Shown here: positions 4,447-61,773 of the stretch, one piece after another
Numbering within the stretch: the stretch's first letter is position 1
How the letters are laid out: every line of letters begins with the position of its first letter
Source: Asaia siamensis
Lineage (GTDB): Bacteria > Pseudomonadota > Alphaproteobacteria > Acetobacterales > Acetobacteraceae
Direction: 5' to 3'
Assembly (NCBI RefSeq): GCF_014635085.1
Contig: NZ_BMCH01000007.1
Coordinates: 1 to 64,000, forward strand
DNA: 64,000 bases
Position numbers and translations under genes: made by a program
The notes under the pieces: model-generated
What the model was told of the DNA's origin: nothing
The model's input: the letters and a program-made list of their open reading frames with translations, nothing else
Databases searched by the model: none

Positions 4447-5352
4447 ATGACCCGCCTCGACAAGCTCGATCTCACCCAGCTCCGCGCTCTCGACAGCCTC
4501 ATTGCCACAGGAAGCGTCACTCGAACGGCCGAGGCTCTGGGGGTAACGCAGCCTGCTGTCAGCAATATGCTCGCCCGCCTGCGTGACGCCTTCGATGACC
4601 CTCTTTTCATTCGCCAGTCACGAGGCCTGGTCTGCACCCCACGCGCTCGCGCACTCCAAAAGCCGCTGCGGTCTGTTCTGGATGGGCTCGGCGCGCTCTA
4701 TGCACCACCGGATTTCGATCCGGCCAAGGCGACCCTTACCCTCTCACTGGCAGCCACGGATTATGCTGCAGCGACCATGGTCACACCATTCATGAAGCGC
4801 CTGCAGGACACAGCCCCCGGCATTCGTCTGGCCCTGCACGGCCTCGATACGGCCTCGCTTCGCAACAGGCTGGAAGATGGGTCGCTCGATATGGCCCTCG
4901 TGACGCCCGAAGAAAGCCCTGCCTCGCTGCACAGCCAATGGCTTTTCCGGGAAACCTGGCTATGCGTCACACGACCCGGCCATCCCGTTCTGACAGAAAC
5001 GGACAGTCTCGATGCTTTCTGCGCGGCGTCCCATGTCGTGGTATCGCCAGATGGCGGAGGCTTCGAGGCGCAGACCGATCGTCAGCTCCATCTTCTGGGA
5101 AGGAAACGTCACGTGGCCGTCTCTGTGCCGGGGTTTCTGATGGTTCCCGAGCTTCTGAAGACAACCGACCTGCTTGCCGTATTGCCCGCCCGGCTAGTAG
5201 CGGATCGGTCCGATCTGGCCGTCTTTGCGCCCCCGCTCGATCTGCCCGGTTTTGACAAATACCTCGTCTGGGCCGATCGCGCCGATCTCGACCCGACACA
5301 GACTGCCCTGAGGGCCATGCTGATCGATACCGTCTCTGGCGCGCAGGCATAA
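4447..5352 (+). CDS. LysR-family transcriptional regulator
   Basis: 301 residues, normal family length. The N-terminal winged helix-turn-helix is clear: LTQLRALDSLIATGSVTRTA near 9-28, then TQPAVSNMLARLRD and DDPLFIR. The C-terminal part (from ~90) is the two-lobed periplasmic-binding-like effector domain. The resemblance is to the NodD/LinR-type branch. It is divergent from the SRPBCC gene and probably controls it through the palindromes in between; the effector is unknown. A hairpin and the convergent glnA terminator follow directly. Confidence 0.9.
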   Translation: MTRLDKLDLTQLRALDSLIATGSVTRTAEALGVTQPAVSNMLARLRDAFDDPLFIRQSRGLVCTPRARALQKPLRSVLDGLGALYAPPDFDPAKATLTLSLAATDYAAATMVTPFMKRLQDTAPGIRLALHGLDTASLRNRLEDGSLDMALVTPEESPASLHSQWLFRETWLCVTRPGHPVLTETDSLDAFCAASHVVVSPDGGGFEAQTDRQLHLLGRKRHVAVSVPGFLMVPELLKTTDLLAVLPARLVADRSDLAVFAPPLDLPGFDKYLVWADRADLDPTQTALRAMLIDTVSGAQA

Positions 5353-5379
5353 AAAAAGCCCGGCTCGAAAGCCGGGCTT
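5351..5379 (-). terminator. Rho-independent terminator of glnA
   Basis: A perfect 10-bp stem AAGCCCGGCT / AGCCGGGCTT (5356-5379) with a CGAA loop lies just past the glnA stop. The run of A at 5351-5357 becomes a U tract on the minus-strand transcript. It also lies directly after the lysR stop, so it may work in both directions. Confidence 0.9.
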
Positions 5380-5388
5380 CGTCTCGGA

Positions 5389-6879
5389 TCAGACCGAGTA
5401 GTACATTTCGAACTCAGCCGGGTGCGGCGTGTGTTCGAACTTGTAAACTTCTTTCCACTTCAGCTCGATGTAGCTCTCGATCTGGTCCTTGGTGAAGACA
5501 TCGCCTTCGAGCAGGAACGAGAAATCGGCTTCGAGGGCTTGAAGGGCTTCACGGAGCGAACCGCAGACCGTCGGGATCTGGGCCAGCTCATCCTTCGGCA
5601 GTTCGTACAGATCCTTGTCCATGGCTTCGCCCGGGTGGATCTTGTTGCGGATGCCGTCGAGACCAGCCATCAGCATGGCGGCGAAAGCAAGGTAGGGGTT
5701 GGCGGTCGGATCCGGGAAACGGACTTCGATACGCTTTGCCTTCGGGCCGACCGAATACGGGATACGACACGAAGCCGAACGGTTGGCTGCCGAGTAAGCG
5801 AGCAGAACGGGGGCTTCAAAGCCCGGGATCAGACGCTTGTAGGAGTTGGTCGACGGGTTGGTGAAGGCGTTCAGCGCCTTGGCATGCTTGATGATGCCGC
5901 CGATGTAGAACAGCGCATCTTCAGACAGGCCAGCATACTGGTCACCGGCGAAAAGCGGCTTGCCATCACGCCAGATCGACTGATGCACATGCATGCCCGA
6001 GCCGTTATCGCCAGCGATGGGCTTCGGCATGAAGGTAGCCGTCTTGCCATAGGAGTGAGCGACATTGTGCACGCAGTACTTGTAGATCTGCATGAAGTCG
6101 GCCGACTGGACCAGCGTGGCAAACTTGGTGCCCAGCTCGTGCTGCGACTGCGCCACTTCGTGGTGATGCTTTTCGATCGGCAGGCCCATTTCGCCCATCG
6201 TCGAAAGCATTTCAGCGCGCAGGTCGCCTTCACTGTCGACCGGAGCAACCGGGAAGTAGCCGCCCTTGACCACCGGACGATGGCCCATATTGCCTTCCGG
6301 ATAGTCCTTCATCGAGGCGTCAGGGCCTTCGATGCTGTCGAGCTGGTACGTGCCGTAATTCGGGCCCGTGCCGAACTTCACGTTGTCGAAAATGAAGAAC
6401 TCGGCTTCCGGACCGAAGAAGGCGGTGTCGCCCAGGCCCGTGGTCTTCAGATAGGCTTCGGCAGCCTTGGCGGTCGCGCGCGGGTCACGGGCATAATAGT
6501 TGCCGGTGCGGGGCTCGACGATATCGCAGATCAGGATCAGCTGCGGCTTGGCCGAGAACGGGTCCATGACGGCCGTAGTCGGGTCGGGCAGGAGCACCAT
6601 GTCGGATTCGTTGATGGCCTTCCAGCCGGCAATCGACGAACCATCGAACATGAAGCCTTCAACGAAGGTGTCTTCTTCGATCGTGGTGTGCCACTGCGTC
6701 GTATGGTGCCACTTGCCCTTCGGGTCGGTGAAGCGCAGGTCGACCAGTTCGACCGAGTGTTCCTGCATCAGCTCGAAGACGCGCTTTACAGCGGCGCTAT
6801 CTGGCTTGCCGGGCTTGGCATTCGCTGCATTCGTGGAAGACGCAGCCTTGGAAGCCGCGGCTGGAGCTTTTTTCGCCAT
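5389..6879 (-). CDS. glnA: Glutamine synthetase type I
   Basis: ATP-dependent synthesis of glutamine from glutamate and ammonium; a cytosolic dodecamer in this family. The 496 residues contain [33 protein letters not shown] and, near the C-terminus, KDLYELP, whose Tyr425 matches the adenylylation site of GlnE-regulated GSI enzymes. Compared with the usual ~470 residues there is an N-terminal extension of about 27 residues rich in Ala, Lys and Ser before VKRVFELM. In many alphaproteobacteria glnB precedes glnA; here upstream is a divergent aminotransferase and no PII gene is in the window. I saw no convincing sigma-54 site upstream. Confidence 0.97.
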
Positions 6880-7340
6880 TTGTCAAATACCTGTATCTGC
6901 CTCAAGGGGCCGCACTGATCGGCTGCAAAACGATTAGGACAGGATTCGCGAACTGTCGAGTATTCCAAAGGCTTTTTGCGACGCACCACGCATGAAAAAC
7001 AGCAATCTTCTCCCCCCGGTAAGGCCCTCAAACACCTTTCGGAATCAAAACGACGCATGACAGACCAACAGAAAAAGCATATCGGATCGCGTCACTCCCT
7101 CATTTCCGATTTTTCCGATCACCCACGCGACTGTGATGCGCATGGACGGCCCGTAACGCCATCGCGACCGGAATCCGTCCCTCCAATCCAAGGGCGCCGC
7201 CGGCAATACACGCTCACGACCTCCGGATTCAGAACCCCTGCCTTCAGCACCTACATGTCAGGGCGTTTTACAGGCGGGATTATGCCGGTATCATGCCCTA
7301 TTCCTTTGCAGCCCCAGCCCCTTTGCAGTGCAGGATCGCC
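6880..7340. other. Divergent intergenic region glnA / aminotransferase
   Basis: About 460 bp without a convincing gene. It must carry the glnA promoter (minus) and the aminotransferase promoter (plus). A frame open from 6976 to 7344 has no recognisable protein features and runs into the real aminotransferase start, so I do not call it. No riboswitch-like fold is evident by eye. Confidence 0.5.
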
Positions 7341-8516
7341 ATGAAAACTCCCAACGCGTTTCTCGGCTCCTTGCCGACCACCATTTTCACGACGATGTCC
7401 CAGCTTGCCATGGCTCATGGTGCCATCAATCTGGGGCAGGGCTTTCCCGATACCGAAGGCCCGGCAGAGCTGATCGATGCTGCGGCAGAGGCGCTGAAGG
7501 ACGGGCGCAACCAGTATGCGCCCCTTACCGGCCTGCCCGAGCTGCGCGAGGCAGTCGCCCGCGCCAACGGGCGCGATTACGGCCTCGATATCGACCCAGC
7601 GACAGAGGTGATCGTTACCTCAGGCGCGACGGAAGCTCTGGCGGTCAGTCTGATGGCGCTCATAGAGCCGGGCGATGAGGTGGTGCTCATCGAGCCGCTT
7701 TATGACACCTATCTTCCCGTACTACGCCTGCTCGGTGCCGTACCGCGCTGCGTACGGGTGGAAGCCCCGGACTGGCACCTGCCGGAAGACGCCCTGCGCG
7801 CCGCTTTTTCAGCCAAGACCAAGCTGATCCTGCTGAATTCGCCCATGAACCCGAGCGGCAAGGTGTTCAGCCCGCAGGAGCTCGATCTGATCGCCTCGCT
7901 CGTGCTGGAGCATGATTGCTATGCGCTCTGCGACGAGGTTTACGAACACCTTACTTTCGGCGTGAAGCACATCCCCCTCATGACGCGGCCGGGTATGAGA
8001 GAGCGGGCGATACGCATTGGCAGCGCAGGGAAGAGCTTTTCGGTCACCGGCTGGAAGATCGGCTACATCACCGCCTGCCCGACTCTGACCGCCGTCATCG
8101 CCAAGGCGCATCAGATTATTGCCTTCTCGAGCGCACCCAATCTGCAGCGCGCTGTGGCAAAGGGGCTGGATCTCGGAGAGTCGTTCTTCACCACGCTTTC
8201 AGACAGCCTGCGCGCACGGCGCGATCTGTTTGCCGAGGGTCTGCACGCGCTCGGCTTTCCGACCCTGCCCGCCGATGGCAGCTATTTTGTGGTCGCCGAT
8301 ATCAGCGCCCATGCCAATGGCCGAGATGATGTCGCTTTCTGCCGCGATCTGGTCGTCGAGTCCGGTGTTGCCGCCATCCCGGTCTCGGCATTCTACGACC
8401 CGCAGGGCGCCGAACCCCCGCGCCATCTCATTCGCTTTGCGTTCTGCAAGACCGAAGCCGTTCTGACCGAAGCGCTCGACCGTCTCGGTCGCCATTTCAG
8501 CCCTCAGGAGGGCTGA
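7341..8516 (+). CDS. PLP-dependent aminotransferase class I/II (methionine/kynurenine type)
   Basis: 391 residues from the ATG at 7341, which has AGGA six bases upstream; the frame is open to 7293 but the extra residues are not family-like. The N-terminus LPTTIFTTMSQLAMAHGAIN with LGQGFPD is characteristic of the YbdL/kynurenine aminotransferase subgroup. PLP contacts: DEVYEH near 198-203 and GSAGKSFSVTGWK with Lys231 as the Schiff-base lysine. The likely role is transamination of methionine or an aromatic amino acid with a 2-oxo acid. The last 13 bases overlap the end of the convergent trehalase gene. Confidence 0.88.
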   Translation: MKTPNAFLGSLPTTIFTTMSQLAMAHGAINLGQGFPDTEGPAELIDAAAEALKDGRNQYAPLTGLPELREAVARANGRDYGLDIDPATEVIVTSGATEALAVSLMALIEPGDEVVLIEPLYDTYLPVLRLLGAVPRCVRVEAPDWHLPEDALRAAFSAKTKLILLNSPMNPSGKVFSPQELDLIASLVLEHDCYALCDEVYEHLTFGVKHIPLMTRPGMRERAIRIGSAGKSFSVTGWKIGYITACPTLTAVIAKAHQIIAFSSAPNLQRAVAKGLDLGESFFTTLSDSLRARRDLFAEGLHALGFPTLPADGSYFVVADISAHANGRDDVAFCRDLVVESGVAAIPVSAFYDPQGAEPPRHLIRFAFCKTEAVLTEALDRLGRHFSPQEG

Positions 8517-44849: not shown

Positions 44850-45761
44850 ATGCTCGATATCATTGTTCTCGGCAGCGGCGCGGGGGGTGGCTTTCCCCAG
44901 TGGAATTCGAACGCCCCCGCCTGCCGCGCTGCTCGCGAAGGCCGAATTCCATCCCGCAGCCAGGCATCCCTTGCCGTCAGCAGCGATGGCCGGAACTGGT
45001 TTGTGCTCAACGCCTCACCCGATCTGCGCGCGCAGATTCTGGCAACCCCTGAATTACAGGCCCAGACCGGGCTGCGCTCGACCCCGATACAGGGCGTCAT
45101 TCTGACCAATGGCGAAATCGATTCCATCACCGGTCTGCTGACCCTGCGCGAGCGTGAGCCTTTCCGGCTCTATGCCACGCAGGCGACACACGCCCAGCTC
45201 GATGCCAACCCGATTTTCGAGGCGGTCAACCGCGAGATCGTCCCGCGTCTCATTCTCGATGACACCACGCCAGTTGCCCTGCCCAACAAGGATGGCACAT
45301 TGTCCGGCCTGACCGTGAGTGCCTTCGACGTTCCCGGCAAGGCGCCGCTTTATGCCGAGCATCTGCCCAGCCAGAAGGGCGAGACGATCGGGCTCGAGAT
45401 AACGGACGGCAAACACCGCCTGATCTTCCTGCCAGCCTGTGCAGATCTCACCCCGGAGATACGCGCCCGCATCCGTCAGTCCGATGCCCTGTTCATGGAA
45501 GGTACGCTCTGGCGCGATGACGAGATGATCCTCGCCGGACTCAGCCCCAAGACGGGGCTGCGCATGGGCCATATCTCCATGTCCGGCCCCGAAGGCATCA
45601 TCGCCACGCTGCATGACGCACCGGCGCATCGCGTTTTCATTCACATCAATAACTCAAACCCTGTCCTCATTCCGGATTCTCCGGAACGCCGGACGGCAGA
45701 AGAAGCAGGCTGGACCATCGGAGAAGATGGTCTGCGCTTGACATTGGGAGCATCATCATGA
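44850..45761 (+). CDS. pqqB: PQQ biosynthesis protein PqqB (metallo-beta-lactamase fold)
   Basis: 303 residues, the normal length. N-terminal IIVLGSGAGGGFPQWNSN is diagnostic, followed by QASLAVSSDGRNWFVLNASPD. It has the metallo-beta-lactamase fold and acts as an iron-dependent hydroxylase on the Glu-Tyr intermediate in the current model of the pathway. The stop overlaps the pqqC start by 4 bases. Confidence 0.97.
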   Translation: MLDIIVLGSGAGGGFPQWNSNAPACRAAREGRIPSRSQASLAVSSDGRNWFVLNASPDLRAQILATPELQAQTGLRSTPIQGVILTNGEIDSITGLLTLREREPFRLYATQATHAQLDANPIFEAVNREIVPRLILDDTTPVALPNKDGTLSGLTVSAFDVPGKAPLYAEHLPSQKGETIGLEITDGKHRLIFLPACADLTPEIRARIRQSDALFMEGTLWRDDEMILAGLSPKTGLRMGHISMSGPEGIIATLHDAPAHRVFIHINNSNPVLIPDSPERRTAEEAGWTIGEDGLRLTLGASS

Positions 45762-46504
45762 CGGTTCTTACCCCCGACGCCCTTGAAGCCCGCCTGCGTG
45801 AAATCGGCGCCGAGCGCTATCACAACCGCCACGCGTTTCATCGCGCCCTTCATGATGGCAAGCTCAGCCGCACACAGGTTCAGGCCTGGGCGCTGAACCG
45901 CTATTATTATCAGGCATCCATTCCCGTGAAGGATGCGACCCTTCTTGCCCGACTGCCCACGGCAGAGCTGCGCCGCGAATGGCGCCGTCGCCTTGAGGAT
46001 CACGATGGCAACGAGCCGGGCACGGGTGGCATTGCGCGCTGGCTGAAACTGACTGATGGTCTCGGCCTGTCGCGCAGCTATGTCGAGAGCCTGCAGGGCA
46101 TGCTGCCTGCAACGGGCTTCGCCGTTGAGGCCTATGTGCATTATGTGCGTGACCGATCCGTGCTGGCAGCCATTGCCTCGTCACTGACCGAACTCTTCTC
46201 GCCGACAATCATCAGCGAGCGCGTTTCGGGCATGCTGCGCCATTACGACTTCATCTCGGAAGAGACCTTGGCCTATTTCGCCCCGCGTCTCACACAGGCA
46301 CCGCGCGATTCCGACTTTGCTCTGGCCTATGTGAAGGAACACGCCCGCACGGCCGAGCAGCAGAAAGAGGTCATCGATGCGCTGATCTTCAAATGCAATG
46401 TGCTCTGGACGATGCTCGATGCCCTTGAGCATGTGTATATGGAAGGCCATCCCGCTCCCGGTGCCTTTGCCGGGGCTCATACCCCAGAGGCTTTCAGCGC
46501 GTGA
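45758..46504 (+). CDS. pqqC: Pyrroloquinoline-quinone synthase PqqC
   Basis: 248 residues. The all-helical TENA/heme-oxygenase-like fold is recognisable from YHNRHAFHRALHDGKL, QAWALNRYYYQASIPVKDA and EDHDGNEPGTGGIARWL. It performs the final ring closure and eight-electron oxidation to PQQ without a cofactor. Overlaps pqqB and pqqD by 4 bases each. Confidence 0.97.
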   Translation: MTVLTPDALEARLREIGAERYHNRHAFHRALHDGKLSRTQVQAWALNRYYYQASIPVKDATLLARLPTAELRREWRRRLEDHDGNEPGTGGIARWLKLTDGLGLSRSYVESLQGMLPATGFAVEAYVHYVRDRSVLAAIASSLTELFSPTIISERVSGMLRHYDFISEETLAYFAPRLTQAPRDSDFALAYVKEHARTAEQQKEVIDALIFKCNVLWTMLDALEHVYMEGHPAPGAFAGAHTPEAFSA

Positions 46505-46776
46505 GCGTCTCCGAAGACAGCATTCTGAAATTTACCCGCGGTCATCGCCTTCAGCATGACCGCGTGCGCGACGTCTGGCTTATCCAGGCGCCCGAGAAAG
46601 CCTTCATTGCCGATCCGATCGCCGCTGCCATTCTGCAGCTTGTCGATGGCGCCCGACCGCTCAGCGTCCTGATCGATACGCTGGCCGAAACCTATCAGGC
46701 GCCACGTGAAACAATCGCAGGCGATGTGCAGACCTTGCTCACTTCGCTCATCGAGCAGAAAGTGCTGAGCGCATGA
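46501..46776 (+). CDS. pqqD: PqqA-binding chaperone PqqD
   Basis: 91 residues starting with GTG at 46501, overlapping the pqqC stop. [20 protein letters not shown] and APEKAFI are typical of the peptide-binding PqqD/RRE fold. It delivers PqqA to the radical-SAM enzyme PqqE. Overlap of 4 bases with pqqE supports stoichiometric expression. Confidence 0.95.
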
Positions 46777-47855
46777 GTTTTGCGCCGCCCCCCATGAGCC
46801 TGCTGGCCGAGCTGACCCATCGCTGCCCGCTTGCCTGCCCCTATTGCTCCAACCCCCTCGCCCTCGATCGCCGGGCTGCGGAGATGGAAACGGCGGACTG
46901 GCTGCGCGTGCTCGATGAGGCGGCTTCTCTGGGTGTGCTGCAGGTTCATTTCTCCGGCGGCGAGCCCATGGCGCGCCATGATCTGCCCGAACTCGTGCGC
47001 CATGCCAGCAAGCTCAACCTCTATACCAATCTCATCACCTCGGGTGTGCTCATCAACGACGTCACGCTCGAAGCCCTTGATACGGCAGGGCTCGATCATA
47101 TCCAGCTCTCGTTTCAGGATGTCGATGAGGCAGGGGCCGAGCGCATCGGTGGGCTGCGCGGCGCTCAGGAAAAGAAACTGAATGCAGCGCGTCTGATCAA
47201 GGCACGTGGCATTCCTCTCACCCTCAATTTCGTTGTGCATCGCGAAAACGTCGCGCGTGTGCCCGAGATGCTGGATCTCGCCCATGAGCTCGGTGCGGGC
47301 CGCGTCGAGATTGCCCATACCCAGTATTATGGATGGGGCCTGAAGAACCGCGATCTGCTGATGCCCTCAGCCGCGCAGCTCGAAGCCTCGACCGAAGCCG
47401 TGGTGAAGGCACGCGCCCGCTTCGGTAACAGCCTCGCCATCGACTATGTCACTCCTGACTACCATGCCGACCAGCCCAAGCCCTGCATGGGCGGATGGGG
47501 CCAGCGTTTCGTCAACATCACCCCGTCCGGCAAGGTGCTGCCCTGTCATGCCGCCGAGACCATTCCCAATGTGGTCTTCCCCAGCGTTACCACGGAATCC
47601 CTCGGTGCGATCTGGCAGGATTCTCCGCTGTTCAACCTGTTTCGCGGCACGGACTGGATGCCCGAACCCTGCCGCAGCTGCAGCCTCAAGGAGGTGGACT
47701 GGGGCGGCTGTCGCTGTCAGGCCCTCGCCCTGACCGGTGACGCTTCAGCAACCGATCCTGTCTGCGCCCGCTCGAACCAGCATGCACTGGTCATGGAAGC
47801 CGCCACTGCCGGTCACGATGGCGAGTTTCTTTATCGACGGTTCAGAGCGATCTGA
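46773..47855 (+). CDS. pqqE: PqqA peptide cyclase PqqE (radical SAM)
   Basis: 360 residues. The radical-SAM cluster motif CPLACPYC has Cys18, Cys22 and Cys25; [11 protein letters not shown] follows. The C-terminal SPASM part has cysteines in LPCHAAE and [20 protein letters not shown] for auxiliary Fe-S clusters. It forms the C-C bond between Glu16 and Tyr20 of PqqA. Last gene of the operon; a dispersed repeat follows its stop. Confidence 0.97.
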
Positions 47856-49133: not shown

Positions 49134-50189
49134 TCAGCCGATATCACGCACGGCATTAACCAGGGCCCCGACATGCTCCGGCGGGGTCTCGGGCATCACG
49201 CCATGGCCGAGATTGAACACATGCGGACGGCCCTTGAGGGCGTTTCTGATCGTATGCGCCTCAACGATCAGAGCCTGCCCGCCATTCTTGAGAATGATCG
49301 GGTCGAGATTGCCTTGCAGTGCCAGTGTGTCGGGGCAGAGCGCGGCCATCTGGGCCATATCGACGGAGGTGTCGCAAGCCAGGGCATCCACGCCTGTTTC
49401 ACGGGCATATTCGATCGCCATCAGACCGGCGAGACGAGGGAAGCCGATGATCTTCACGCCGGGTCGAGCGGTGCGAATACCCTGCACGATACGCCGTGTC
49501 GGGGCGATCACATGCTGGCGGAACTGCGACGGAGGCAACAGACCGGCCCAGCTGTCGAACAGCATGACGGCTTCGGCGCCCGCATCGATCTGGCCAATCA
49601 GCATGTCGGTAGTGGCCTGTGTCAGCAGGTCGATGAGATCGCCATACAGGGCAGGGTCCTGCAGGGCCATGGCGCGTGTCACGCCGAACTCGCGTGAGCT
49701 GCCGCCATCGACCATGTAGCAGGAAACCGTGAAGGGGCTGCCAGCAAAGCCGAGAAGTGTCGTGGGCTGCGGAAGCTCACGAGCCAGAATCCGCAACGTT
49801 TCCTGGATCGGCGCAACGATTTCGGCTACGCGTGACGGAGACAGCGCCTCCAGAGCAGCGCGATTGCGGATCGGCTCCATGACCGGACCGCGGCCTTCGA
49901 TGAATTTCAGATCCTGACCCATGGCCCAGGGCAGGACCAGAATGTCGGAGAACAGAATGGCGCCATCCATGGCATAGCGGCGGATCGGCTGAAGGGTCAG
50001 CTCTGCGGCGATGTCGGGGGTGGTACAGCGCGTCAGGAAATCGGCCTTGGCCCGTTCGGCCCGAAACTCGGGCAGATAGCGACCGGCCTGACGCATCAGC
50101 CAGATCGGAGGGGGCCAGACCGCCTCTCCCTGGAGGACACGCAGGAGCGGTTTTGCAGGGCTCGGCTGAGGTGAGATTTCGCTATCCAT
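49134..50189 (-). CDS. hemE: Uroporphyrinogen decarboxylase
   Basis: 351 residues from the ATG at 50189; the frame also opens at a TTG three codons earlier. PPIWLMRQAGRYLPEFR near 27-43, FSDILVLPWAMGQ, and GFAGSPFTVSCYMVDGG are diagnostic. It removes four carboxyls from uroporphyrinogen III. It heads the hemE-HAD-hemJ operon and faces away from the gene-free region that I propose as a replication origin, as hemE does in Caulobacter. Confidence 0.96.
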   Translation of the reverse strand: MDSEISPQPSPAKPLLRVLQGEAVWPPPIWLMRQAGRYLPEFRAERAKADFLTRCTTPDIAAELTLQPIRRYAMDGAILFSDILVLPWAMGQDLKFIEGRGPVMEPIRNRAALEALSPSRVAEIVAPIQETLRILARELPQPTTLLGFAGSPFTVSCYMVDGGSSREFGVTRAMALQDPALYGDLIDLLTQATTDMLIGQIDAGAEAVMLFDSWAGLLPPSQFRQHVIAPTRRIVQGIRTARPGVKIIGFPRLAGLMAIEYARETGVDALACDTSVDMAQMAALCPDTLALQGNLDPIILKNGGQALIVEAHTIRNALKGRPHVFNLGHGVMPETPPEHVGALVNAVRDIG

Positions 50190-50507
50190 ACCGACCAATA
50201 ATCATAAAAGAAAAAAGAAAGATATCCTGTCGGATAGGTTGATCCCTGTGGATGACGGGGTACCCATCTTTCCGAAAACGTACCCCGACTTACCAACACT
50301 GTGTACAAACGATAAAGCCTTTGGTTTGAAGCATTTGCGTAAGTTATCCCGAAATACCCACAGAAGGGCTGTGTACAACCCACCGGTACCGCCAGAAAAA
50401 GTACAATCCACGGTACTCGGTACATCGGCTCTCGATGCCTCGTACAATCCCCATGTACCCCAGTACTGACGGTACTCATTCACCCCCCTCATAGAAGGAG
50501 ACGCCTT
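50190..50507. other. Candidate chromosomal replication origin (oriC)
   Basis: A 318-bp gap between divergent hemE and maf. It has an AT-rich stretch (50197-50226), a near-consensus DnaA box TGTGGATGA (50247-50255, one mismatch), and weaker boxes TTATCCCGA (50344-50352), ATACCCACA (50354-50362) and TGTGTACAA (50300-50308 and 50370-50378). In Caulobacter and related alphaproteobacteria the origin lies beside hemE. No dnaA, RP001 or parAB is in the window. The motifs are few and partly weak, so promoters of hemE and maf could be the only function. Confidence 0.5.
50260..50475. repeat. GTAC tetranucleotide array
   Basis: Twelve GTAC sites occur within 216 bp, at 50260, 50280, 50303, 50373, 50386, 50401, 50413, 50420, 50442, 50455, 50463 and 50472. 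Exact repeated subtypes: CTGTGTACAA (50299-50308, 50369-50378), GTACAATCC (50401-50409, 50442-50450), ACGGTACTC (50410-50418, 50469-50477) and GGTACC palindromes (50259-50264, 50385-50390). I cannot assign a binding protein. Confidence 0.8.
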
Positions 50508-51140
50508 ATGGAGTCGGCATATGCGAATCCGGGCACAGCCCGCCTGTTTCTCGCCAGCGGATCGACGACGCGGCTTGGTTTGCTACGGGATGCGGGTCTT
50601 GAGGTCATGTCCTGTCCCGTAGGGATTGATGAGGCTGTGATCAGAGACAGGATGAGGGCTGAAAAACGGTCTCATGGCGCTATCGCTCTGGCGCTCGCTG
50701 ATGCCAAAGCTCTAGGGTTTTTCAGGAAAACCGATTTTATGAGCGCCGATTTTGTTATCGCGGCAGACCAGATTCTGGAGTGCGATGGCGTCGGTTTCGA
50801 CAAGCCGGAATCACTCGATCAGGCGCGGGAGCAGCTACGTCATCTCAGGGGGCGTACGCATCATCTTCAGACGGCGCTGGTGCTTTACAGAAACCGCCAG
50901 AAGCTCTGGGAGCATCTGGCGAGCCCGAAACTGACCTTCCGTGACTTCAGCGAAGCGTTTCTCGACACCTATATAGCAAGCGAGGGAGATGCCCTTTTGT
51001 CCTGTGTGGGGGCCTACAGACTCGAAGGGATGGGAGTACAGCTTTTCGAGACGATCGATGGCGACCATGATGCCATATTGGGTCTGCCTCGCCTGCCCCT
51101 GCTTGCTGTACTGCGTGAATACGGGGTGGCGAAAAAATAG
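50508..51140 (+). CDS. maf: Maf-family nucleotide pyrophosphatase
   Basis: 210 residues. The Maf opening LFLASGSTTRLGLLRDAGLE near 13-32 and the catalytic ADQILECDG near 86-94 are clear. Maf proteins hydrolyse non-canonical or modified nucleoside triphosphates and are linked to septum arrest. AAGGAG lies seven bases before the ATG. Near-origin maf genes next to hemE are a conserved alphaproteobacterial arrangement; the aroE-coaE-dnaQ genes that often follow are absent here. Confidence 0.9.
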   Translation: MESAYANPGTARLFLASGSTTRLGLLRDAGLEVMSCPVGIDEAVIRDRMRAEKRSHGAIALALADAKALGFFRKTDFMSADFVIAADQILECDGVGFDKPESLDQAREQLRHLRGRTHHLQTALVLYRNRQKLWEHLASPKLTFRDFSEAFLDTYIASEGDALLSCVGAYRLEGMGVQLFETIDGDHDAILGLPRLPLLAVLREYGVAKK

Positions 51141-51222: not shown

Positions 51223-51298
51223 GGGGCCATAGCTCAGTTGGGAGAGCGCCTGAATGGCATTCAGGAGGTCGTCGGTTCGATTCCGATTGGCTCCACCA
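51223..51298 (+). tRNA. tRNA-Ala (anticodon GGC)
   Basis: Acceptor GGGGCCA pairs with TGGCTCC (one G-T), followed by A and an encoded CCA. The D arm (TAGCTCAGTTGGGAGAGC), the anticodon stem CCTGA/TCAGG around ATGGCAT with anticodon GGC, and the T loop GGTTCGATTCC are standard. Confidence 0.97.
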
Positions 51299-60213: not shown

Positions 60214-61773
60214 ATGAAATTCTCAAATCGATGCTTTTCTCTGTATAATCTATCGGGAAATCTATTGTCTTCCGTCGTTCGTCTGACTGACGATCATAAG
60301 ATAGACGGGATCGATCATAAAGCAGGAAATAAATGGCTTTTTGAGTATAATTGCCTAAAATTCTATCGTGAGGATGTATTATATATCCTTTTTAATAATA
60401 GGATAGAACACGACAATGTCTCTATTTTTATTGGAAAATCTCTTGATGGTGATAATCCCTCTTCTTATATTCTCGTAGAAAATCAGGAAAAAAAAGATTA
60501 CCTTGCAGAGGTAAGGACAAGTGTTGACTCAGTCAAAGCCCTGATGACGCAGATGAACGACACTTTGGGCGTTGGTGTCCGGTCGGGGAAGAGACACGGA
60601 TCGGTCAGAAAGATCGTATTTCTCGTACATAATATAGCAACTTGGGATAGTCTTTCAGATGTCTATCAGCATCTCATGGAGGCGCCGGATTTTGATGCCG
60701 TAGTCATTACTATTAATCGGAGATTCCCGGGCGAGGACAAATTCGGACATGAGCCGGAAACCCATCTGGCACTCTTGAATAAAGGGATTCCCCATATAAG
60801 ATTTGGTGGCCCAGATCATGACGAAAATTTGCGACTACTTAAATTTATTTCACCAGACGGAATTTTCAGACAATCACCATGGGATTATGATATTCCTCCG
60901 GAATTTCATGTTAATAAATTAGATTTTTCTAATCTATTTTATATTCCTTATTTTGGATACAATATTGTTGAGAGATTTACGCCAGACCCAAATGAGCGTG
61001 ATTTTCAGGCAGATCAAGATTTACATCGCGCCTGCCGCCTAGTTTTTTGCGAGTCGGATATCACTCGTGAAATAATGACAGAGAAAAATTGTCGTGGTGG
61101 TGATCATTTTGTTGCAACAGGTCATCCAAAACTGGAGAAACTTCTTGGATGTAAGAATAATCCAAAGTGGCCTTTTCCTAAATTAGAAGAAAAAAATAAG
61201 GCTCGCATTATATGGGCGCCACATCACAGTATTAAGAATGACTGGTTATCATTTGGAATTTTTCCATCAGTATACAATGATATGCTCGCTTGGGTTAAGA
61301 GCGACCAAGATATCGAGATCGTTCTGAAGCCGCACCCTGCATTGTTTGCGCTGCTAACGGGAACTGGCCTCATGACAGGTGAGCAACTGAAGATTTTTTT
61401 GGATGAATGGAATGGTCAGGAGAACGCTACTATTGTTGAGGATTCTGACTATGGCTCTCTAATGCTTGCTTCCGATATCATGCTTACCGATGGCATTAGC
61501 TTTCTTTCAGAGTATATGCTGTTTCCCGAAAAGCCCCTCATTTTCATGGAAAACCCTGACCACGCGCCATTCAACAAGGTTGGAAAAATCATCGAAAGCG
61601 CGTGTTATATTGTACGAAACGTCGAAGAGACCCGACATCTTCTGGGAGAAATCACGAAAGACGGGCAGGATTGCAAAAAATCTGAGCGCGAGAAGGTGAA
61701 GGATATTCTCTTGCCATTCGAAACCGGCGCTGCGGAACGTATCGTTGACCGGCTTAGAGCCTGTTTTGAGTAA
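60214..61773 (+). CDS. CDP-glycerol glycerophosphotransferase-like protein, AT-rich orphan
   Basis: 519 residues. The C-terminal ~330 residues have the TagB/TagF/SpsB-type GT-B layout: ESDITREIM, a VATGHPKLEKLL segment near 305, ARIIWAPHHSIKNDW near 329-343, EIVLKPHPALF near 369-379, and SDIMLTDGISFLSEY near 424-438. The first ~130 residues are not recognised and look strand-rich. It may add a polyol phosphate or sugar to a surface polymer. No partner genes are adjacent. AT-rich codon use and flanks point to horizontal transfer. Confidence 0.75.
   Translation: MKFSNRCFSLYNLSGNLLSSVVRLTDDHKIDGIDHKAGNKWLFEYNCLKFYREDVLYILFNNRIEHDNVSIFIGKSLDGDNPSSYILVENQEKKDYLAEVRTSVDSVKALMTQMNDTLGVGVRSGKRHGSVRKIVFLVHNIATWDSLSDVYQHLMEAPDFDAVVITINRRFPGEDKFGHEPETHLALLNKGIPHIRFGGPDHDENLRLLKFISPDGIFRQSPWDYDIPPEFHVNKLDFSNLFYIPYFGYNIVERFTPDPNERDFQADQDLHRACRLVFCESDITREIMTEKNCRGGDHFVATGHPKLEKLLGCKNNPKWPFPKLEEKNKARIIWAPHHSIKNDWLSFGIFPSVYNDMLAWVKSDQDIEIVLKPHPALFALLTGTGLMTGEQLKIFLDEWNGQENATIVEDSDYGSLMLASDIMLTDGISFLSEYMLFPEKPLIFMENPDHAPFNKVGKIIESACYIVRNVEETRHLLGEITKDGQDCKKSEREKVKDILLPFETGAAERIVDRLRACFE

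Follow-up and report, generated by a model that had tools for sequence, protein, structure and literature searches.

A conserved GTAC array marks the probable chromosomal replication origin between hemE and maf in Asaia siamensis and other acetic acid bacteria

The short gap between hemE and maf in Asaia siamensis is almost certainly the chromosomal origin of replication (oriC), an assignment to which several indirect lines lead, i.e., base composition, motifs, and conservation, together with GC skew and parS-like sites in relatives. Its strongest signal is a cluster of 12 GTAC palindromes within 216 bp (50260 to 50475), which very probably represents a functional, clade-specific origin element maintained by selection throughout this group of bacteria. 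As a whole, our best explanation, an oriC with a functional GTAC array for which DNA methylation is put first as the mechanism, has a probability of roughly 0.85. Among specific mechanisms, we give methylation first place since an enzyme that can be tested is at hand for it, whereas the rival of a GTAC-binding protein names none.

The gap occupies positions 50190 to 50507 of the window, by which we mean the whole 64,000-nucleotide stretch analyzed, and measures 318 bp from the start codon of hemE (ATG at 50189) to that of maf (ATG at 50508). Both genes diverge from it, as the first-pass annotation had described when it proposed an origin at this site: on the left hemE, encoding uroporphyrinogen decarboxylase, on the minus strand (49134 to 50189; PF01208, E value of 2.9e-112), and on the right maf on the plus strand (50508 to 51140; PF02545, E value of 1.8e-40). 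The G+C content of the gap is 48% vs about 60% in the surroundings, and the A+T-rich segment already pointed out at 50197 to 50226 (no strand assigned, as for the gap itself) indeed consists of 83% A+T, is conserved in the alignment, and is probably the unwinding element. The previously noted DnaA-box-like site at 50247 to 50255 on the minus strand reads TCATCCACA (TGTGGATGA in plus-strand letters), differs from TTATCCACA at a single position, and is conserved, in the form CCTGTGGAT, in the majority of the 17 aligned sequences. Only three one-mismatch boxes were observed in the 64 kb vs seven expected, so that such a box alone is no evidence for an origin. If up to two mismatches are allowed, the gap is enriched in boxes: it holds six of them, one with a single mismatch and none perfect, vs a shuffle mean of 1.05, and this number was reached in 0.1% of 1,000 shuffles. 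Weak DnaA-like boxes are located at 50300 to 50308 (minus strand; TTGTACACA), 50344 to 50352 (plus strand; TTATCCCGA, two mismatches), and 50370 to 50378 (minus strand; again TTGTACACA), the first and the last of which enclose GTAC sites 3 and 4, respectively.

The DnaA protein of A. siamensis carries GNRDHTTVMHA, which resembles the standard box-reading motif of DnaA. The idea that GTAC belongs to an altered DnaA box was rejected, since the box preference of a protein with this motif is probably ordinary. The 2.0-Mb genome of one relative (G066) exhibits a quite different design, with nine perfect TTATCCACA boxes and zero GTAC in the 400 bp upstream of its hemE match (L293).

Several other features of the window were recorded in passing. 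A tRNA-Ala gene (GGC; 51223 to 51298) directly follows maf, and a few kilobases from the origin, at 44850 to 47855, there are open reading frames (ORFs) that we take to be similar to pqqB, pqqC, and pqqE, the third of which proved to encode a radical SAM/SPASM protein in the domain search. Between 59000 and 62000, the G+C content drops to 0.42 to 0.47 over an ORF of 519 residues (60214 to 61773) whose product presumably resembles CDP-glycerol glycerophosphotransferases, and this stretch is possibly acquired DNA.

In Caulobacter crescentus, dnaA lies near the origin. This origin, Cori, is similar to the gap of A. siamensis in its location beside hemE, its shortness, its A+T-rich segment, and its DnaA boxes, but its other flank is COG1806, where A. 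siamensis has maf. In the accessible part of the respective article, Cori is stated to adjoin hemE and to have CtrA sites, and hemE-linked origins are predicted also for Rickettsia and Wolbachia (PMC1914354). Unlike Cori, the A. siamensis gap has a dense GTAC array and a distant dnaA, and it is devoid of TTAA, the CtrA half-site, so that a TTAA-N7-TTAA CtrA site is absent from these 318 bp. A loss of CtrA, as reported for Granulibacter in the available text of one study (PMC2877005), was considered as the reason for the array and rejected: a CtrA-family match with an E value of at most 1e-60 is present in 337 of 397 family genomes, including A. siamensis (6e-95). The latter value is weaker than those of the listed matches above the curated cutoff (1e-107 to 1e-118), which points to a divergence of CtrA and not to its loss.

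As the genome of A. siamensis is available in 18 contigs, the location of the origin rests on relatives, in which the skew was mapped. In G173, which has a strong skew, 179 bp separate the cumulative GC-skew minimum (23,861) from the array (24,040). In G149, a member of the same genus, all 11 stretches sampled between 0 and 1.62 Mb had a positive skew, and 8 of the 9 sampled between 1.76 and 3.06 Mb had a negative one; the array, located at 3.19 Mb in a total of 3.20 Mb, lies 2.6 kb from the fine-mapped minimum (3,195,208), which is shallow, as the curve hardly changes there for about 45 kb. The sampled sign change of G169 between 2.31 and 2.57 Mb brackets the array at 2.49 Mb. Together, these three genomes support the placement of the origin between hemE and maf by the first-pass annotation. 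In G215 (G. diazotrophicus), where the array is at 2.14 Mb, the sampled curve reaches its lowest value near 2.64 Mb within a blurred region from 2.07 to 2.83 Mb; it neither contradicts the origin nor places it precisely. In all 20 of 20 genomes, the nearest parS-like site is 8 to 102 kb away from the array (89.9 kb in A. siamensis), and 6 of them have additional parS-like sites at distances of more than 130 kb or on a different contig.

A GC-skew minimum elsewhere, for example beside dnaA, which the first-pass annotation itself had named as contrary to its proposal, did not emerge in the two relatives that were mapped finely. The accessible passages of two articles place the origin beside dnaA, for Acetobacter pasteurianus 386B (PMC3751514) and for A. 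cerevisiae KSO5, in the latter case at the skew maximum and with dif 51 kb away (PMC13209655). In our comparison, dnaA is separated from the array by 69 to 99% of half a chromosome in 17 of 17 genomes, among them G149, G173, and G215, and thus located in the direction of the terminus, and in three more it is on another contig; in the distance measurements, the contigs of G000 (A. siamensis), G061, and G131 were treated as linear, and elsewhere the longest contig was taken as the chromosome. Moreover, the dnaA gene of G173 (0.99 Mb) falls into the interval of 0.86 to 1.04 Mb in which the skew turns from positive to negative, as it does at a terminus. We thus regard the probability of a dnaA-linked origin as close to negligible, and the annotated origin of KSO5, judged from the published excerpt and by comparison with G169, looks more like a terminus. 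Genome records that are numbered from dnaA consequently start far from the origin. The dnaA gene of A. siamensis itself was located at G000:C4:36478.

The first-pass annotation was right in its origin call but incomplete in its reading of the gap, as it overlooked the array of 12 GTAC sites. GTAC is the most enriched tetramer of the gap, where dinucleotide-preserving shuffles (n = 20,000) yielded a mean of 1.93 and a maximum of 8, and other sampled 318-bp windows of the 64 kb contain at most three copies each. Triplets of GTAC with gaps of 1 to 25 bases occur at 10 places in the genome, 8 of them at the origin gap. Their share at the origin varies among those relatives for which all were listed (8 of 12 in G374 and in G295, 7 of 15 in G169, and 5 of 14 in G061), so that in some genomes, such as G061, most triplets are situated elsewhere; for G389, there are 31 triplets in all among the matches listed. 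Of 80 sampled stretches from four relatives, two include the origin, and precisely these contain the 300-bp spots with the most GTAC (11 and 10 copies); the next one has 6.

A comparison of hemE-maf gaps across the Acetobacteraceae, which had been suggested as a check, revealed that the array recurs in register. The signature GTAC-N16-GTAC-N19-GTAC was detected in 106 of 397 family genomes from 24 of 102 genera, and on visual inspection of the matches listed, all 106 appeared to hold array-like sequence. Scattered matches were also obtained when the signature was searched backwards as a control, one of them in the genome of A. siamensis. Named genomes with the array upstream of hemE belong to Asaia, Swaminathania, Brytella, Gluconobacter, Neokomagataea, Acetobacter, Gluconacetobacter, and Commensalibacter, and it was not seen upstream of hemE in Acidisoma, Acidocella, Roseomonas, and three Saccharibacter genomes. 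Conserved blocks in an alignment of 17 gaps include CCTGTGGAT, GGGGTACCC, AAAAyGTACCCC, TGTGTACA, CTGTGTACAAC, CGGTACTCGGTAC, and TCCCCATGTACCCCAGTAC.

The conservation of individual sites was assessed in 41 dereplicated arrays, after exclusion of 4 of 75 loci that lack the signature (L012, L014, L016, and L032). Sites 1 (50260 to 50263), 2 (50280 to 50283), and 3 (50303 to 50306) score 41 of 41 by construction, as the signature was used for selection. Six of the nine sites outside the selection are intact in 32 to 41 arrays, namely, sites 4 (50373 to 50376; 41 of 41), 7 (50413 to 50416; 35), 8 (50420 to 50423; 37), 9 (50442 to 50445; 34), 10 (50455 to 50458; 40), and 11 (50463 to 50466; 32), and three are lineage specific, namely, sites 5 (50386 to 50389; 2), 6 (50401 to 50404; 9), and 12 (50472 to 50475; 8). 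The mean identity within the block amounts to 82% at GTAC columns, which include the three sites selected for, vs 59% elsewhere, and the flanks of many core sites are conserved as well. Given that the sequences are related and that the block is partly conserved outside GTAC, the palindromes could be incidental, that is, inherited within the clade without a role of their own. This reading is highly unlikely, as lineage-specific sites turn over while the totals hold at 6 to 13 GTAC per 270 bp across the 41 arrays, as 8 of the 10 triplets of the A. siamensis genome are at this gap, and as the enrichment extends past the block: the 150 bp beyond it contain 63 GTAC vs 11.3 expected in the 41 sequences, a 5.6-fold excess that ranks first among the 16 palindromes (1.5-fold for the runner-up). 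There, A precedes 44 and T follows 40 of the 63 copies, a preference of one base on each side. The enrichment beyond the block and the constancy in number despite the turnover of sites suggest that GTAC itself has been selected.

The location of the gap between two divergent genes would also suit a shared control region of hemE and maf, in which GTAC binds a transcription factor. The gene neighborhood, which was checked in 37 fetched array loci and in hemE loci, argues otherwise: hemE and maf flank the array in 31 of the 37, but in the other six (L111 to L115 and L217, from two genus groups) neither gene is present in the fetched DNA and the array is retained all the same. The skew minimum coincides with the array and parS-like sites are near, and we give a mere control region very little credence. 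The array of L217 (L217:6205) is situated between an ORF at 5275 to 6084 and a gene at 6437 to 7984 that we take to be GMC-oxidoreductase-like; assuming that L217 stems from the same Saccharibacter genome as L016, hemE is about 20 kb away.

Some protein probably reads GTAC to control the timing of the start of replication. A candidate is a solitary methyltransferase of the PF01555 type encoded outside the window (G000:C1:620432-621289). Within the PF01555 family, to which the methyltransferase search was directed, a larger group, presumably CcrM, was found in each of the 22 genomes searched. The candidate belongs to a second group, whose members have about 280 residues and carry TSPPYN and which is present in all 16 array genomes searched. 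In the family-wide search, the second-group enzyme was found in 170 of 397 genomes, comprising all 106 with the array and 64 without it. An alignment (A1) covers 12 of 19 candidate-enzyme loci; L211, L212 (wrong-strand ORF), and five more were left out. The nearest solved structures are named DNA cytosine-N4 methyltransferases, whereas the best NCBIfam match, far below the cutoff, is an adenine-specific methyltransferase, which makes the base marked by the candidate uncertain. PADLOC assigned it mostly to generic type II methyltransferase models (best, PDLC03295). The gene overlaps the end of what we take to be an MltA-like gene, followed by presumably cytochrome-c-peroxidase-like and Smr-like genes, and no endonuclease was recognized by eye among these neighbors in the A. 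siamensis genome.

CcrM, which recognizes GANTC, is a methyltransferase linked to the replication cycle, and the candidate shares with it the solitary state and the conservation. It differs from CcrM in its score against the CcrM model (62 bits; cutoff, 830), and GANTC is missing from the 318-bp gap in the motif scan, with two sites just inside maf (starting at 50511 and 50525).

GTAC also occurs beside a DnaA box in genomes without the array. In A. siamensis, the composite element GTACCCCG-NN-ATCCACAG (50246 to 50263, minus strand) places a GTAC four bases from the DnaA box, and other Acetobacteraceae carry a single element of this kind upstream of hemE. When at most one mismatch was allowed, it was detected in 71 of 291 family genomes that lack the array, i.e., in 37 of 64 with the candidate methyltransferase vs 34 of 227 without it, counted anywhere in the genome and thus not always with GTAC intact or at hemE. 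Some of the 34 enzyme-less cases may be due to chance, as the backwards control has matches in about 26 of 397 genomes by visual count. Comparing the 300 bp upstream and downstream of hemE in array-less genomes, the density of GTAC per kb is 3.1 vs 1.2 in the presence of the enzyme (28 loci, including the GTAC-rich L269 from a genus group of array-bearing genomes) and 0.6 vs 0.7 in its absence (28 loci). These correlations concern related genomes, and the counts ignore kinship. To judge from such sequence comparisons, the array looks like an elaboration of an older module with GTAC beside a DnaA box.

These data bear on the question of how GTAC is read. It is nearly an even bet that the palindromes of the origin function as binding sites of a protein (an initiator helper, an architectural factor, or a repressor, perhaps acting together with DnaA) and that methylation is uninvolved. 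The longer conserved blocks around several GTAC sites fit a larger protein site, and so does the fixed distance between GTAC and the DnaA box in genomes without the candidate enzyme. The same applies to the scarcity of GTAC at dnaA: no cluster was found at the dnaA promoters, with 2 GTAC in 2,337 bp from the 11 of 20 dnaA loci with upstream DNA, one of them with a doubtful start. A binding site of this kind is harder to reconcile with the 150 bp beyond the block, where GTAC turns over and stays enriched with a preference of just one base on each side, and with the occurrence of the candidate enzyme in every array genome. Conversely, the 64 enzyme-bearing genomes without the array, the element in enzyme-less genomes, and the GTAC-poor dnaA promoters speak against methylation, and a Dam/SeqA-like control via GTAC methylation, which is proposed by analogy, is put forward as a tentative mechanism that we hold to be somewhat less probable than plain protein binding.

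In a working model based on these motifs, DnaA would bind the box at 50247 to 50255 and the weaker boxes in the array and would melt the A+T-rich segment beside hemE, from where forks would proceed in both directions and terminate on the opposite side of the chromosome, which carries dnaA. The 12 GTAC sites would be a working part of the origin, read by a protein that recognizes GTAC itself. In the methylation variant, the solitary methyltransferase would mark GTAC, and newly replicated, half-methylated origins would be recognized and held back from refiring. As two GTAC sites are located inside DnaA-like boxes, DnaA binding could be altered directly by a modification of GTAC or by a protein bound to it. 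In Escherichia coli, GATC, Dam, and SeqA hold half-methylated new origins from refiring. The array resembles E. coli oriC in its dense cluster of a four-base palindrome, in the overlap of some sites with DnaA-like boxes, and in the conserved solitary methyltransferase of the genome; it differs in the palindrome (GTAC instead of GATC), in the PF01555 type of the candidate enzyme, and in the missing cluster at dnaA. The GATC cluster of oriC is described together with Dam and SeqA in the available part of one article (PMC13076061), and the Dam site GATC is among the origin elements of Ori-Finder 2022, according to an excerpt of its description (PMC10225481). A treatment of an origin GTAC array of acetic acid bacteria was not found in the open-licence literature, searched by title and abstract, among the matches listed.

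Our results fix the origin of an industrially important clade that comprises vinegar, cellulose, and vitamin C bacteria as well as insect symbionts, and they argue against the assignment of Acetobacter origins to the dnaA locus in the literature, as in all genomes studied here this gene is distant from the origin. They expose a conserved origin motif and name a candidate enzyme for its reading or marking, to which long-read methylation data are pertinent. An independently evolved sequestration, in which GTAC is methylated and half-methylated origins, with two of the sites inside DnaA-like boxes, are shielded from DnaA, is rather unlikely; if true, however, it would represent a second invention of the Dam/SeqA principle, based on another palindrome and in origins without CtrA sites.
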